A stretch of DNA of 64,000 nt from Cytophagales bacterium (GTDB taxonomy: Bacteria > Bacteroidota > Bacteroidia > Cytophagales > Cyclobacteriaceae). Positions 26,410 to 53,712 of the stretch are shown here, piece by piece (within the stretch, counting starts at the first letter, position 1; each line of letters opens with the position of its first letter). The notes under the pieces are model-generated. The model had not been told where the DNA came from and did not search any database. It was given only the letters and a program-made list of their open reading frames with translations. Location: NCBI GenBank assembly GCA_025359125.1, contig JANYHI010000042.1, positions 62,001-126,000 on the forward strand. Reading direction: 5' to 3'. The position numbers and the translations under genes were made by a program.

Positions 26410-27432
26410 ATGAATCGCAATTTTAAAGATGGGTTGAATTTTCTTTCTAAAGTTACGCCTGCTCGCGCGTGGAATGCCTCAAAAGTTCTTTCTAGTTTTT
26501 ATGCTTCGAAATTATCAGGTAAACCGAATCATTCCGGAATGCCCATTAGTATCTCCATAGAGCCAACTACTTCTTGTAATTTGCGTTGCCCCGAATGCCC
26601 CAGTGGACTTCGATCATTCACTCGCCCCACAGGAATGCTTAAAACTGAGCTGTACCAATCTGTGATTGATCAGCTTGCTCCTTCGCTCTCTTATTTAATT
26701 TTTTATTTTCAAGGTGAACCGTATTTGCATCCATCTTTGGTAGACATGATTCGTTACACTTCCAATAAAGGAATTTATACTGCCACTTCAACTAACGCAC
26801 ATTACCTTAATGATCAGGCAGCCAAAAATACAGTTGAGTCTGGATTAGACCGATTGATTATTTCTATCGATGGAACATTACAGGAAACATACGAATCATA
26901 TCGGGTAGGAGGGAACTTGGAAAAGGTAATTGAAGGAACTAAAAATATTATTCGTTGGAAGCGTGAATTAAAATCTAAAACGCCACATGTTATTTTTCAA
27001 TTTTTAGTTGTTAAGCCAAATGAACATCAGGTTGACGAAGTAAAAAAACTGGCAACTGAATTAGGGGTGGATGAAGTAGTTTTAAAAACCGCACAGATTT
27101 ATGATTATAAAAACGGTTCAGATTTAATTCCTACGATCGATCAATATTCTCGTTATCAGAAAAAATCTGATGGTACCTATGAAATTAAAAATGAATTAGA
27201 AGATCATTGCTGGAAGATGTGGCACAGTTGTGTAATCACTTGGGATGGAAAAGTAGTGCCTTGTTGTTTTGATAAAGACGCACATTATGTGTTGGGCGAT
27301 CTTACAAAAAATACTTTTAAGGAAATATGGGAAGGACAATCCTATCATCAATTTAGAAGCTCGTTGCTCCAATCAAGAAGTGAAATTGAAATGTGCCGCA
27401 ATTGCACAGAAGGCACTAAGGTGTGGGCCTGA
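26410..27432 (+). CDS. Radical SAM/SPASM domain enzyme
   Basis: A 340-aa cytosolic enzyme. The cluster-binding motif is TSCNLRCPECPSG, i.e. CxxxCxxC, near residue 57. FYFQGEPYLHPSLVDMIRY carries the SAM-site GEP element, and RLIISIDGTLQETYESYRVGG follows. The C-terminal SPASM-like region has cysteines in HCWKMWHSC, WDGKVVPCCFD and the final EMCRNC, enough for auxiliary Fe-S clusters. Length and order fit the MoaA/peptide-maturase superfamily. No precursor peptide or partner is evident nearby, and the substrate is unknown. Confidence 0.88.
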   Translation: MNRNFKDGLNFLSKVTPARAWNASKVLSSFYASKLSGKPNHSGMPISISIEPTTSCNLRCPECPSGLRSFTRPTGMLKTELYQSVIDQLAPSLSYLIFYFQGEPYLHPSLVDMIRYTSNKGIYTATSTNAHYLNDQAAKNTVESGLDRLIISIDGTLQETYESYRVGGNLEKVIEGTKNIIRWKRELKSKTPHVIFQFLVVKPNEHQVDEVKKLATELGVDEVVLKTAQIYDYKNGSDLIPTIDQYSRYQKKSDGTYEIKNELEDHCWKMWHSCVITWDGKVVPCCFDKDAHYVLGDLTKNTFKEIWEGQSYHQFRSSLLQSRSEIEMCRNCTEGTKVWA

Positions 27433-27433
27433 G

Positions 27434-27592
27434 TTAAAAATTCTTTTGGAAACTTTTTGTAGCATCGGCTACTCCACATTTGCCACAGCCTGTTGAGCAT
27501 TCATGCTTAGCTTGGAAAGAACGATAGACCAGTCTTCCTAAGTAAAAAGCAGCTCCTAAAAATACGATTCCGATAAGTATGAGTTGAATCAT
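27434..27592 (-). CDS. Small Cys-rich single-pass membrane protein, FeoB-associated type
   Basis: A 52-aa protein starting at 27592 (MIQLILIGIV) and stopping at 27434. One transmembrane helix (residues 2-19) is followed by a short basic tail and the cysteine motif ECSTGCGKCG (residues 31-40). This arrangement matches the FeoB-associated Cys-rich membrane proteins, which usually sit beside ferrous-iron transporter genes. No feoA/feoB is present in the window. It ends 2 nt from the convergent radical SAM stop. Confidence 0.75.
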   Translation of the reverse strand: MIQLILIGIVFLGAAFYLGRLVYRSFQAKHECSTGCGKCGVADATKSFQKNF

Positions 27593-27640: not shown

Positions 27641-27656
27641 TGTCCGATTGCGGACG
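27641..27656. promoter_or_regulatory. 16-bp dyad, candidate NtrC-type enhancer site
   Basis: TGTCCG-ATTG-CGGACG is a near-perfect inverted repeat about 80 bp upstream of a -24/-12-like element for the ABC permease. The same TGTYCR-N4-YGGACR layout occurs at 53697-53712 upstream of the sigma-54 activator gene. It is the candidate binding site of that activator. Confidence 0.5.
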
Positions 27657-27726
27657 CACTAAATCGATTTTGAACGAGATTAATTTTTAGAGTTTAGAAA
27701 TAACAGCAATTAAGCAGCTTTCTATA

Positions 27727-27744
27727 TTGGCACTGAAGTTGGCT
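27727..27744 (+). promoter_or_regulatory. Sigma-54 -24/-12-like element before the ABC permease
   Basis: TTGGCAC, 5 nt, then TTGGCT. It matches the consensus TTGGCAC-N5-TTGCW except that the -12 GC reads GG. The predicted start would leave only a very short leader, which lowers confidence. Confidence 0.35.
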
Positions 27745-27758
27745 AAGGAGATAGAAAA

Positions 27759-30182
27759 TTGTTAGTTATGATCAAGAATTACTTTGTTATAGCCTTCCGC
27801 AGCATTCTTAGAAACAAGTCTTACGCATCTATCAATATTGCCGGGCTAGCATTAGGGATCACTACGTGCTTAATTATTTTTTTAATTATAAAAAGAGAAG
27901 TTAGTTACGATACAGTTTTTTCAAGGGCTGAGTCAATATATAGAATTGTAAGACATTCAACAGATGCATCTGGCTTAAATAAAAGTAGTATTACTCCCTA
28001 CACTCTTGGAAATGCACTAAAGAATGATTTCCCTGAAATAACTTCCACTCAATTTCATTTTCAATATGAGTCGTTGGTGACGATTGATGAGGAAAAAAGT
28101 AAAGTACAGAACATCGTCTTCGCAGATACTTCTTTCTTTGATGTATTCGATATCGAAGTTTTATCGGGCAATCCCCAAAAAGATTTAGCACAACCCGGCA
28201 AGATTTTTTTGACAGAAGAGTTTGCAAAAAAATTATTAAAGAAAGATGCCAAGCAATTAAAGCTTGATAACTTATTAGATTTTGAAATTGCCGGTATTAT
28301 TCGAATGCCAAAGTTACCCTCTCATATCGAAATTAATATGGTGGCCTCTATGGCAACGCTTACATCTGATCTGGCAAAAAAGTTTTTAGGGTTTCCAATT
28401 GATCAATGGGGGTTAAATTCAGCGGGCTTTACCTATTTGATTTTACCTCCTAACATAGATAAACAAACGATGGAGTCTAAGTTTACAGCATTCATTAAAA
28501 AATATGTAGATGCGGAAGATGCCACGCGGACTGCCTATTTTTTACAACCACTTAAGGACATTCATTTTAATACCGAATACAGTGATAATCCGGGCAGCAC
28601 GCCTACCTCATTTTCTGTTTTGATTATCTTAGGATTTATAGCATTATTCATTTTATTAATTGCTTGTGTTAATTTTATTAATTTATCAACCGCACTTTCT
28701 ATCCATCGATCGCGCGAAGTGGGTGTGCGCAAAACGTTGGGTGCCCAGCAAGGTCAGCTTGCAATGCAATATTTAGGCGAGGCCTTTTTACTAACTACGA
28801 TTGCAGCTCTTCTCTCAATTGTAGCTGCAGAATGGTTTACTCCCGTAATCGGTGGATTCTTACAAAAGAAAATTACGTTAAACTTATTGGCAAATCCTTC
28901 AGCTCTTAGTTTTTTAATTATCATTATTTTATTTACAGCACTTTTTTCTGGCTTATACCCAGCTTTGATTTTATCTAGGTTTAATCCCGTTAAGGCATTG
29001 AAAAGTAAAATGTCGGCTCACACGCAAGGAGCTGTTCCTGTTAGAAAAATATTAGTGGTTCTACAGTTTTTCATCGCACAGGTTCTCATCATTTGTACGC
29101 TGGTAGTAAGTAGCCAGCTTTCATTTTTTAGAAATAAATCTCTTGGCTTTGCAAAAGAGGCTGTAGTAAATGTGAACTTGCCCGATCAAGATGTGAATAA
29201 ATTAGAAGCGATCAGGAATAGATTAATGGCCGATGAAGATATTAAGGATGTATCTTTTTCACTGGGTGCACCGATGTCATCTTTTAATTTTGGAACTGGC
29301 ATGTTCTTAACCGAAAAGGGGAACACAAATCGCTATAGTGTTAGCATTAAGCCCGTTGATACCCATTATAAAAACGTGTATGGACTAGAGTTAATTGAGG
29401 GAAGGTGGTTTACTGAGAGTGATGAAAAGCTTGCTAACAATAAGGAGAAACCAATTTGGGTTTATATTCTAAATGAAACTGCCGTAAAGCAACTTGGCTT
29501 TGCTTCACCCAAAGATATTATCGACCAAAATATTACGATTAGCTTTAATGATATTTCAGGCCCGGTGATAGGTGTGGTAAAAGATTTTCATACGGCTTCT
29601 CTACAGCAAGAGATGAACCCAACGTGTTTATTGCCTTTTAATTTAGCACATGATGCAGGAATTAAAATTTCAACAGCTAACGCCTCAGGTATCATTAAAA
29701 AAATAGAAGCAGCGTACACTTCGCAATATCCTGAGTATTTATTTGAATATACTTTCTTAGATCAGTACATAGGTAAACAATACGAAGAAGAAGAGCGCAT
29801 GTTTACGATGTTTCAAATATTTGCAGGTGTTGCCATTTTTATTGGATGCCTCGGCTTATACGGTTTAGCTTCTTTCATGGCTCAGCAAAAAACAAAAGAG
29901 ATTGCTATTCGAAAAAGTTTGGGTGCATCCATTGGACATATCATTGCCATGTTTTCCAAGGAATTTATTAGCCTAATATTGATTGCTTTTGTGATTGCTG
30001 TTCCGGTGGCGTGGTATTCGATGAATAGTTGGTTGCAGGATTTTGCATATCGGGTTGAAATTGGCTGGGCAGTTTTTGCGATAGGAATTTCAAGCACATT
30101 ATTTATTACCATCCTAACGGTTGGCTACAGGTCTATTCTTGCGGCTTCTGCCAATCCAGTAGATTCGTTGAAGAATGAGTAG
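27759..30182 (+). CDS. ABC transporter permease, MacB/FtsX type
   Basis: An inner-membrane protein of about 807 aa from a TTG at 27759, or 804 from the ATG at 27768. An AAGGAG at 27745-27750 fits the TTG better. It has a TM helix at residues 20-42, a MacB-type periplasmic domain, three TM helices of an FtsX domain around 285-425 (the cytoplasmic SIHRSREVGVRKTLGA motif lies between them), and a second periplasmic plus FtsX unit in the C-terminal half (QQKTKEIAIRKSLGA). No ATPase gene is adjacent, as is common for this family in Cytophagales. The substrate is unknown. Confidence 0.88.
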   Translation: MLVMIKNYFVIAFRSILRNKSYASINIAGLALGITTCLIIFLIIKREVSYDTVFSRAESIYRIVRHSTDASGLNKSSITPYTLGNALKNDFPEITSTQFHFQYESLVTIDEEKSKVQNIVFADTSFFDVFDIEVLSGNPQKDLAQPGKIFLTEEFAKKLLKKDAKQLKLDNLLDFEIAGIIRMPKLPSHIEINMVASMATLTSDLAKKFLGFPIDQWGLNSAGFTYLILPPNIDKQTMESKFTAFIKKYVDAEDATRTAYFLQPLKDIHFNTEYSDNPGSTPTSFSVLIILGFIALFILLIACVNFINLSTALSIHRSREVGVRKTLGAQQGQLAMQYLGEAFLLTTIAALLSIVAAEWFTPVIGGFLQKKITLNLLANPSALSFLIIIILFTALFSGLYPALILSRFNPVKALKSKMSAHTQGAVPVRKILVVLQFFIAQVLIICTLVVSSQLSFFRNKSLGFAKEAVVNVNLPDQDVNKLEAIRNRLMADEDIKDVSFSLGAPMSSFNFGTGMFLTEKGNTNRYSVSIKPVDTHYKNVYGLELIEGRWFTESDEKLANNKEKPIWVYILNETAVKQLGFASPKDIIDQNITISFNDISGPVIGVVKDFHTASLQQEMNPTCLLPFNLAHDAGIKISTANASGIIKKIEAAYTSQYPEYLFEYTFLDQYIGKQYEEEERMFTMFQIFAGVAIFIGCLGLYGLASFMAQQKTKEIAIRKSLGASIGHIIAMFSKEFISLILIAFVIAVPVAWYSMNSWLQDFAYRVEIGWAVFAIGISSTLFITILTVGYRSILAASANPVDSLKNE

Positions 30183-50884: not shown

Positions 50885-52234
50885 TTAAAAACGCAATAAA
50901 AATTCTGTTCCTTCACCCAGAATGGATTTGACCGTAATGCCACCCTCGTGCTGCCGCATGATTTGTTTGGACAAACTAAGGCCAATGCCTGAACCAGTTT
51001 TCTTGGTAGAGAAAAATGGGATAAATATTTTTTCCAATGCTTCAGGCTCAATTCCGGTACCATTGTCTTTCACAGAAATAATTACGCTACCCTTTTCATT
51101 AATATAACTTGCCAATGAAATTTGCTGAGCAGGTTTTTCTTCAAACGCCTGGATCGCATTTTTAATCAGGTTGATCAACACTTGTTCGATAAGCGTTCGG
51201 TCAGCATTGATTTTAATATCACCTGGTTCTACTGAAATAGTGATCGCAATATTTTTGTCGGCCAGTTCTTTTTTATGAAGCATAGCCAGTTCATCTAAAA
51301 GAGGTTTCACTGCCACCTCTGTCAATTTTGGTTTGGGAATATGTGTAAGACTTCTAAACTCTTTCACGAATTTGATGAGTCCCTCGCTGCGTTTGCTAAT
51401 GGTTTGAACAGAAAGATGCATGTCTTCGGCCTCATCTCTTTTCATACTCAATTCATTCGCCACTAGCTTGCGTCCTAATTCTTCTTCTACTACACCCGCC
51501 AATGAAGAGATAGGTGTTACTGAATTCATAATCTCGTGTGTGAGAACGCGTACCAGATTTTGCCATGCTTCCATTTCCTTTTCTTCTAATTCGCTTTGAA
51601 TGTTACTCATCGAAATGAGTTTTACCTCTTCTCCGCGCAGAGTTAGCTCAATCGCATAAATGGATAGCTGAACAGTTTCGTCTCCGTTTTTTACGCGTAC
51701 CAATTCGCGGCCTCCAGTTTTAAGTTTTAAGTAAGATTCGACTAGTGCATCGCTTACTTCGCGTAGGTCACTTAATTTTTCTGCTCGATCAATACGCAAC
51801 AGTCGCTTGGCTGCATTGTTAATGATCTGAATGGTTTGATCTTTTTTAAATGTTAGAATTCCAATGCCTACATGCTGCACAATGTTTTTAAAGAACTGAT
51901 ATTCTGAATCTTTTTCTTTTCTATTTTGACGAAGCTTGCCAAGCGCATCATTCATCTCTTGCTGAAGTTGTTTAACAGATGGATTGCTGTGGTCTGTTTT
52001 GAAGGTAGAAGTGACCTCATCAAATTTGAGTTCATTCAAAAGAGAAGCAACATCTTGAGGTGGCTTTTCAATAATTTTTACAAGTTGAGAAACCTGAAAA
52101 CCAATGGCCACTAACAGACCAATTGCCAATAGGATGCTGCTACTTTCTAATTTTAATGCAGATGAAAATGCAAAAATGGTAAACACCAAAATTGCAATGC
52201 GAGTGACTATTGGCGATCGCCAATTAAATTCCAT
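50885..52234 (-). CDS. NtrB-like membrane sensor histidine kinase
   Basis: 449 aa. Two N-terminal membrane helices (residues 10-27 and 31-50) with almost no periplasmic loop are followed by a coiled region and a PAS domain near 112-215. The H-box is LVRVLTHEIMNSVTPISSLA (His233). The ATPase domain has NLIKNAIQAFEE, VKDNGTGIEPEALEKIF and KKTGSGIGLSLSKQIM. The short loop suggests it senses from the membrane or cytoplasm. It overlaps the upstream regulator gene by 11 nt and surely pairs with it. Confidence 0.92.
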   Translation of the reverse strand: MEFNWRSPIVTRIAILVFTIFAFSSALKLESSSILLAIGLLVAIGFQVSQLVKIIEKPPQDVASLLNELKFDEVTSTFKTDHSNPSVKQLQQEMNDALGKLRQNRKEKDSEYQFFKNIVQHVGIGILTFKKDQTIQIINNAAKRLLRIDRAEKLSDLREVSDALVESYLKLKTGGRELVRVKNGDETVQLSIYAIELTLRGEEVKLISMSNIQSELEEKEMEAWQNLVRVLTHEIMNSVTPISSLAGVVEEELGRKLVANELSMKRDEAEDMHLSVQTISKRSEGLIKFVKEFRSLTHIPKPKLTEVAVKPLLDELAMLHKKELADKNIAITISVEPGDIKINADRTLIEQVLINLIKNAIQAFEEKPAQQISLASYINEKGSVIISVKDNGTGIEPEALEKIFIPFFSTKKTGSGIGLSLSKQIMRQHEGGITVKSILGEGTEFLLRF

Positions 52235-53591
52235 ATTTTTCCATTCTGCGATAGAGCGATGCGCGGGTGAGGCCTAGTTCATCTGCTGCTTTAGAAATAT
52301 TTCCGTTATGCAATTGAATAGCCTTGACTACGGCAGCTTTTTCTACTTCATCTAAATTCAATGTGTCGCTCGCCAAGCTTTCATTTCCTTTTCGGCTAAA
52401 CAAGAAATCACTTTCTTGAAGTGTTTGAGAGTCAGCCATGATCAGCGCTCGTTCAATAGAATGTTGCAGCTCGCGCACATTTCCGGGCCACGGATATTTT
52501 TTTAATTTATTCATCGCCTCTGGCGAAATGGTCAATACATCTTTGCGATACTTTTTAGAATAGTAATTCAAAAAGTGATTGGCCAACATAGGGATGTCAT
52601 CAATGCGCTCGCAGAGAGGCGGAATATTTATTTCAACCGTGTTGATCCGATAAAGTAAATCTTGCCTGAACTTACCTTCTTTCACCATTTGGTGAAGAGG
52701 CATATTAGTTGCGCATACCAAACGAATATCTACTTCAACGTGCTGATTGGAACCAACGCGTGTTACTTGTCTTGATTGCAGTGCGCTTAACAGTTTGCTC
52801 TGTAGGCTCATACTTAAATTACCGATCTCGTCTAAAAATAACGTTCCTCCATTTGCTAACTCAAATCTACCGGGGCGATCTTCGCGTGCATCTGTGAAAG
52901 CTCCTTTTTTATGACCGAATAATTCGCTTTCGAAAAGTGTTTCGGTTACGGCACCCATATCTACTGCTACAAACGAATTATTCTTACGCAACGATTTTTG
53001 ATGAATGGCTCGTGCAATTAATTCTTTACCAGTTCCGTTTTCTCCTAAAATTAAAATGTTAGCATCGGTCTTGGCTACTTTATCAACTAAAGAAAATACT
53101 TCATTAATGGCAGAGCTGTTTCCAATAATATCGCGGAAGGGTTGACTGATTTGCTCTTCCAGCATTTCCTTTGCTTTACGCAGTTTGTCAACCTCGTTGT
53201 ATGACTTCTTTAATTTAATGGCCGTTGAAATAGTAGCAATTAATTTTTCGTTTTGCCAAGGCTTCAAAACAAAATCAGTTGCGCCTTCTTTAAGTGCGCG
53301 CACGGCCATCTCCACATCTCCAAATGCAGTTATCAAAATTACTACGGCATCGGGTTCTTTTTCCTTGATCACTTTCAGCCATTCAAATCCTTCTTTGCCA
53401 CTGGTAGTATCTTTGCTGAAATTCATATCCAGCAAAATCACATCATAGGTATCGTTATTAAGAAGAAAAGGAATTTTATTTGGATTTTTCTCTATGATTA
53501 CTTGATGACTATTTTTTTTGAGAAGCATTTTCGCTGCGAGCAATACATCTTCATCATCATCTATCATTAATATTTTGCCGCCTTCGTTCAC
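52224..53591 (-). CDS. Sigma-54-dependent response regulator, NtrC family
   Basis: 455 aa. The receiver domain (1-120) has the acidic triad DDDED and phospho-acceptor Asp55 in VILLDMNF. The AAA+ domain carries Walker A GENGTGKE (183-190) and GTLFLDEIG as Walker B. The sigma-54 contact loop reads GAFTDA (230-235), not the classical GAFTGA. A Fis-type helix-turn-helix closes the protein (NISKAADELGLTRASLYRRM). It is the first gene of a two-gene operon with the NtrB-like kinase. Upstream lie a -24/-12-like element and a 16-bp dyad, suggesting autoregulation. Confidence 0.95.
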   Translation of the reverse strand: MNEGGKILMIDDDEDVLLAAKMLLKKNSHQVIIEKNPNKIPFLLNNDTYDVILLDMNFSKDTTSGKEGFEWLKVIKEKEPDAVVILITAFGDVEMAVRALKEGATDFVLKPWQNEKLIATISTAIKLKKSYNEVDKLRKAKEMLEEQISQPFRDIIGNSSAINEVFSLVDKVAKTDANILILGENGTGKELIARAIHQKSLRKNNSFVAVDMGAVTETLFESELFGHKKGAFTDAREDRPGRFELANGGTLFLDEIGNLSMSLQSKLLSALQSRQVTRVGSNQHVEVDIRLVCATNMPLHQMVKEGKFRQDLLYRINTVEINIPPLCERIDDIPMLANHFLNYYSKKYRKDVLTISPEAMNKLKKYPWPGNVRELQHSIERALIMADSQTLQESDFLFSRKGNESLASDTLNLDEVEKAAVVKAIQLHNGNISKAADELGLTRASLYRRMEKYGI

Positions 53592-53620: not shown

Positions 53621-53636
53621 AGAAAAATTGTGCCAA
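53621..53636 (-). promoter_or_regulatory. Sigma-54 -24-like element before the NtrC-type gene
   Basis: On the minus strand TTGGCAC (53636-53630) is an exact -24 box, followed by AATTTTTCTT where the consensus would be N5-TTGCW. The predicted transcript start falls roughly 20 nt before the ATG at 53591, a natural position. The -12 GC is missing. Confidence 0.38.
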
Positions 53637-53696
53637 TGCCAGAACCGTCCGGAAATGCGGTTTTGTCTTTCGGATTCGTTCTTTAGCGTACAAAGA

Positions 53697-53712
53697 TGTT
53701 CAAAAATGGACA
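53697..53712. promoter_or_regulatory. 16-bp dyad, candidate NtrC-type enhancer site
   Basis: TGTTCA-AAAA-TGGACA has the same 6-4-6 layout as 27641-27656 and lies about 70 bp upstream of the -24 element. It is a likely self-regulatory site for the sigma-54 activator. Confidence 0.48.

Follow-up and report, generated by a model that had tools for sequence, protein, structure and literature searches.

A conserved dyad before a duplicated FtsX-type permease gene as a candidate activating site of a sigma-54 exporter regulon in Cytophagales

The element at positions 27641–27676 of the window, the 64,000-nucleotide stretch of Cytophagales DNA that was analysed here, is in our estimate (probability about 0.85) an upstream activating site for the family of NtrC-type response regulators represented by the gene at 52224–53591, and belongs to a sigma-54 exporter regulon. 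Sites of this kind probably let one regulator family switch on scattered export-pump parts together in a group of Cytophagales. The phosphorylated regulator would bind 27641–27676, the DNA would loop, and the AAA+ domain of the regulator would open the sigma-54 promoter at 27727–27743, with transcription of the permease gene as the result. Besides its own gene, this family would activate exporter genes that are scattered as adaptor-ATPase-permease-permease, ATPase-TolC, and PadR-permease-permease units and as lone permeases. The pump parts would then be produced together on one signal, perhaps an envelope or antimicrobial one, and the lone permeases could borrow a co-induced ATPase. The features of the window are collected in Table 1.

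Table 1. Features of the permease and regulator regions of the window
Feature	Position	Strand	Remarks
Dyad 1 of the permease upstream activating site, TGTCCG-ATTG-CGGACG	27641..27656	+	predicted; conserved in orthologs
Possible degenerate dyad 2, AAATCG-ATTT-TGAACG	27661..27676	+	20 bp downstream of dyad 1
Predicted sigma-54 -24/-12 promoter, TTGGCAC-TGAAG-TTGGC	27727..27743	+	boxes 71-72 bp from dyad 1 in 5 orthologs
Duplicated FtsX/MacB_PCD permease, 804 aa	27768..30182	+	domain search
Sensor histidine kinase gene adjoining the regulator	50885..52234	-	
NtrC-type response regulator (receiver, AAA+ with GAFTDA loop, Fis-type HTH); GTG start	52224..53591	-	
Predicted sigma-54 promoter of the regulator gene, TTGGCACAATTTTTCT	53621..53636	-	weak -12 element
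Dyad 2 of the regulator's site, TGTACG-CTAA-AGAACG	53677..53692	-	3/6 bases complementary; mean 3.9 over 25 orthologs
Dyad 1, the regulator's own upstream site, TGTCCA-TTTT-TGAACA on the gene strand	53697..53712	-	conserved in orthologs

An earlier, sequence-only reading had paired two dyads, TGTCCGATTGCGGACG at 27641–27656 before the permease gene and TGTTCAAAAATGGACA at 53697–53712 before the regulator gene, each with a TTGGCAC box nearby. Both dyads are where it placed them and both boxes are present, at 27727–27733 (+) and 53630–53636 (−). Its spacing of 70–80 bp holds for the permease, where 70 bases separate dyad and box, but not for the regulator, where there are 60. One might suppose that the two dyads are alike by chance, and their numbers alone would allow it: with up to one mismatch, the window contains four matches (two sites, each on both strands) versus 1.78 expected, a count reached by 12 of 100 shuffles, and the 3.68-Mb genome has three exact dyads versus four for the reversed control. 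TTGGCAC alone is found 8 times versus 6.97 expected, and a looser -24/-12 pattern 46 times versus 48.28. The dyad count by itself, being at chance level in window and genome, was set aside as support. All three exact dyads of the genome lie before NtrC-type regulator or exporter genes, the third, at C22, separating an HlyD-type adaptor gene from the divergent gene of an NtrC-type regulator. The excess over chance is in the combination of dyad and box and in their placement, not in the counts.

This combination was searched as dyad-N55-85-TTGGCA in 58 genomes, the window's own and 57 relatives, and gave 64 matches in 32 genomes versus 7 for the reversed pattern, so that a random frequency, which the sequence-only reading had named as grounds for refutation, holds for the dyad alone but not for dyad plus box. 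Four of the 64 are the same dyad with a second box; the 60 distinct matches that remain were assigned by their first downstream gene or by position before a regulator gene. Forty-eight of them precede a regulator of the family (10 window-type, 1 other) or exporter genes. Among the latter, HlyD-type adaptors account for 19, a count that takes in a G047 match at only 24% identity and a G007 match that the over-long open frames of the two divergent genes both enclose; permeases follow directly in 8 cases (one at a distance of 233 bp, another truncated), a PadR gene and then a permease in 8, and an ATPase and then an FtsX-like permease in 2. The other 12 have another target or no fitting one, and include a match in G034 in which the dyad is the regulator's own and the box points away. 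The regulator family (E<=1e-100, up to 29 candidates scored per genome) is present in 44 of the 58 genomes, 31 of which have a match, as against 1 of the 14 genomes without it, where the match lies inside an open reading frame (Fisher p 3e-5, phylogeny not controlled). Such coherent targets and the reversed-pattern control (64 versus 7), together with the conservation before orthologs beyond chance described below, make a chance likeness of the two dyads highly improbable.

Site anatomy was compared at 77 loci, where 67 sites were located; the 10 loci missed by strict patterns (3 permease, 5 regulator, 2 ATPase-FtsX) were left out. In the regulator and adaptor classes, a second dyad follows exactly 20 bp after the first, with a mean of 3.9 and 4.8 complementary bases of 6 at +20, respectively, and at most 2.6 at the other scanned offsets. 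Permease sites reach 2.3 of 6 at +20, barely above their other offsets (up to 2.2), and the offset scan saw no second dyad at +20 in the PadR sites. The gaps between dyad 1 and TGGCA fall at 60–64, 70–74, and 83–84 bp, with exceptions at 51 and 66, and are thus phased at ~10.5 bp, about one helical turn. Tested against a uniform distribution over 50–85 bp, this phasing gives p ~5e-6 for 22 groups with one value each (1 of 200,000 simulations) and ~6e-4 with 14 collapsed groups, in a sample of sites preselected within 45–90 bp, with values grouped by hand and one box taken at each of seven loci that have two.

Such spacing bears on another view, in which a repressor, for example PadR, uses the dyad as its operator and the TTGGCA box is incidental. 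PadR proteins often repress their own genes, which counts in favour of an operator, as do the PadR genes downstream of 8 of the 60 matches; the remaining 52, however, were not assigned to a PadR gene, the spacing and phasing relative to the sigma-54 box fit an activator, and the PadR-permease locus C87 of the window's own genome has no site that our search could find. We consider a repressor operator improbable.

For the permease itself, dyad 1 matches our model R1 with E 7.9e-6 in a search of the window, the site having belonged to the training set. The possible dyad 2 shares its register with the second dyad seen in regulator and adaptor sites; 2 of its 6 bases are complementary, and its resemblance to other sites is mainly in the right half. 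The predicted promoter is one mismatch away from a TGGCAC-N5-TTGC-like element, matches to which are at chance level in the window. The open reading frame list starts the permease at a TTG at 27759. With no more than 17 candidates scored in each genome, orthologs at 50% identity or more were found in G012, G029 (partial), G030, G020, G034, G006, and G018, and six of the seven retain the upstream site, in the form CGTCC[GA]-N4-CGGACG. These sites begin with CG, not TG; they were therefore missed by the pattern of the sequence-only reading and were read by eye. Boxes lie 71–72 bp from the dyad in 5 of the 7 orthologs, and a weak box is present in G006, a further one; a sigma-54-type element is thus conserved before the permease orthologs. 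No site was seen before the orthologs of G018 (50%, inside a permease array) and G015 (49%).

Upstream of the permease lies a conserved radical-SAM/SPASM gene (26410–27432); in G012, G020, G034, G007, and G008, its counterpart, at 69–89% identity, likewise lies ahead of a site-bearing permease. A second permease follows the first in G012, G020, and G034; the window permease may therefore be the leftover of a permease pair. A 52-aa frame whose start is hydrophobic and which has four cysteines runs divergently from the permease on the minus strand (27434–27592), and the permease site is located between the two.

The regulator has the domains of an NtrC-type activator (PF00158, 2.6e-69; PF00072, 1.3e-18; PF02954, 2.6e-13), and the genome has one rpoN match, at C36 (E 3.9e-54). 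Every listed member of the family carries GAFTDA or GSFTDA, not GAFTGA, in the sigma-54 contact loop; of three further activators encoded in the genome, two have GSFTGA and one has GSFTSA. NorR with a similar loop substitution is constitutive. The part of PMC4641369 available to us places GAFTDA among the loop variants that would retain activity. Counting the window gene, 26 of 30 regulator orthologs have the dyad upstream, 25 of them with the box in register, and four lack the dyad; TGGCAY-N4-5-TTT precedes 24 of the 30. In a wider set of 80 loci, which may partly overlap the 58 genomes, 79 had a recognisable start and 77 enough upstream DNA; the dyad is present at 67 of these 77, 64 of them with a box, which is 60–63 bp away in 63. 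The named matches of this set include Ohtaekwangia, Chryseotalea, and Chryseolinea, which points to Cytophagales as the origin of the window; the regulator is present in the cultivated Ohtaekwangia koreensis and Chryseolinea serpens. Between dyad 2 and the regulator promoter, a half-site-like stretch, TCCGGACGG, was noticed at 53640–53657 (E 4.3 only), and many regulator orthologs have TCGGAC-like letters in this interval.

The dyad is thus conserved upstream of most orthologs of regulator and permease alike; a lack of such conservation would have refuted the sequence-only reading. A site common to the two genes and retained in this way fits autoregulation and joint control, as had been suggested, but the set is wider than these two targets and a second regulator exists. 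We scanned the genome with a sequence-only model of a 42-bp element (33 training sites), scoring 150 of 463 first-look candidates. At E<=10 there are at least seven matches in at least six regions, with adaptor, ATPase, TolC, and other permease genes among their targets, and all are at genes of the regulator family or of exporters: the two window sites, C22 on both strands, a C45 permease, C59, and C63, the last two lying outside the training set. At C59, an ATPase that matches the DarD model stands ahead of a TolC-type protein, and at C63 a PadR gene stands ahead of two permeases; the C22 operon, divergent from the C22 regulator, consists of adaptor, ATPase, and two permeases. Duplicated permease genes number 14 in the genome, including one that a contig end truncates; together with a fragment, they are distributed over ten loci. 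Four of these loci have sites; the other six have none at E<=1, C35 among them, whose upstream region is cut off by a contig end. Three DarD-like ATPase genes score above 200 bits, none above the cut-off, and two of them are in the site-bearing set, the third (C7:165571) being without a site. This third gene (G000:C7:165571–166209, L299) stands alone, with no recognised permease within the 9 kb examined.

The model was also run on 12 chosen relatives, with 150 candidates scored in each, and a subset of the matches listed was examined: 21 (3 from the window's own genome) in a first set and 19 (3 shared with the first) in a second. Nineteen of the 21 adjoin a regulator, adaptor, ATPase, PadR, or permease gene on either side, the misfits being G007:C13 and a match in G016, a genome without the regulators of this family, that lies inside a gene at E 0.9. 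In the second set, 5 sites precede a C59-type ATPase, 8 a permease, and 2 another gene and then a permease; one is divergent to PadR, and 3 have none of these. The site before the C59-type ATPase was found in 7 of the 13 model-searched genomes, and in G025 (98% complete) a site precedes a permease fragment that lies at the end of a contig.

Which member of the family acts on the window permease is a separate matter. The window regulator shares 60% identity with the C22 regulator, and the recognition helices of the two, LTRASLYRRMEKYG and LTRSSLYRRLEKHG, are nearly the same, for which reason the helix was dropped as a discriminator between them. Paralog loss was dropped as well: G025 is the single complete genome used in which only the window type was found, and the genomes with only the C22 type, G012 and G021, are 76 and 79% complete. 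We put the chance that the window regulator acts on the permease, alone or jointly, at about even. That the C22 paralog activates it instead we rate a little below even: the permease dyad is closer to the C22-regulator site TGTTCGGTTGCGGACG than to the TGTTCA-TTTT-TGAACA type of the window regulator, and the C22 regulator is encoded divergently from a site-bearing exporter operon. The near identity of the helices speaks against singling out the paralog, however, as does G025, in which only a window-type regulator was found among the 29 of 40 candidates scored, and yet a site precedes the permease fragment; the window type is therefore plausibly able to act on the permease site.

Activators of the NtrC family (the AtoC, NtrC, ZraR, and PEP-CTERM response regulator models) share with the window regulator the receiver, AAA+, and Fis-type HTH domains and with its targets the dyad sites upstream of a -24/-12 promoter. 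The window regulator, however, falls below the curated cut-off for all 25 models listed out of 101, and the GAFTDA loop and the exporter-gene targets set it apart. The FtsX and MacB_PCD domains, a sequence match to solved MacB, and the adaptor, ATPase, and TolC genes among the targets recall MacAB-TolC; in contrast to MacB, the window permease is duplicated, and the domain search matched no ATPase domain in its 804 aa. Permeases, adaptor, and ATPases also match the NCBIfam models of the darobactin exporter DarBCD (DarB, DarC, DarD), but all scores are under the curated cut-offs and the parts are dispersed over the genome. As DarB, the window permease scores 159.1 bits against a cut-off of 700 (NF038008), and as an ADOP duplicated permease 297.8 bits against 622.3 (TIGR03434); the latter match spans nearly the full length and is a likeness of architecture only.

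A link between sigma-54 and these permeases has been published. The parts of PMC12316311 that we consulted describe, for Bacteroidia and other classes, an enrichment of in-silico sigma-54 promoters ahead of FtsX-like permeases (COG0577) and call it the first such evidence. Our promoter before an FtsX-like permease agrees with this, but those parts name neither an activator nor a binding site, both of which are proposed here. The literature searched (titles and the starts of abstracts) likewise named no activator or binding site for FtsX-like permeases and held no description of an exporter regulon under sigma-54. As far as the consulted portions go, sigma-54 has been tied to the cell exterior in general (PMC3162934), and sigma-54 promoters have been mapped in a flavobacterium, with MacB and permease absent from the main text (PMC9723704).

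With 14 duplicated permease genes versus three DarD-like ATPase genes above 200 bits, the timing and the power source of lone permeases are at issue. The regulon supplies a candidate activator family, a directly testable site, and a co-regulated ATPase-TolC pair, and through that pair the question of a shared ATPase becomes testable. A bolder reading, which we offer tentatively and think somewhat doubtful, is that of a modular exporter. A self-amplifying sigma-54 two-component system would co-induce a limited pool of DarD-like ATPases, an adaptor, and a TolC channel along with several unlinked duplicated permeases that serve as interchangeable substrate modules of one common machine, and in relatives, paralogous regulators with diverged helices and sites would run parallel sets.

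A third class of regulator is found beside permease clusters in G015, G028, G017, and G026. Its recognition helix is changed (TRTALYRR), and the script search found no site-plus-box for it in these four genomes. TGTATC-N6-GATACA dyads are present in two of the four intergenic regions of this class (L123, L125), which is suggestive of a recognition helix and a site that co-vary.
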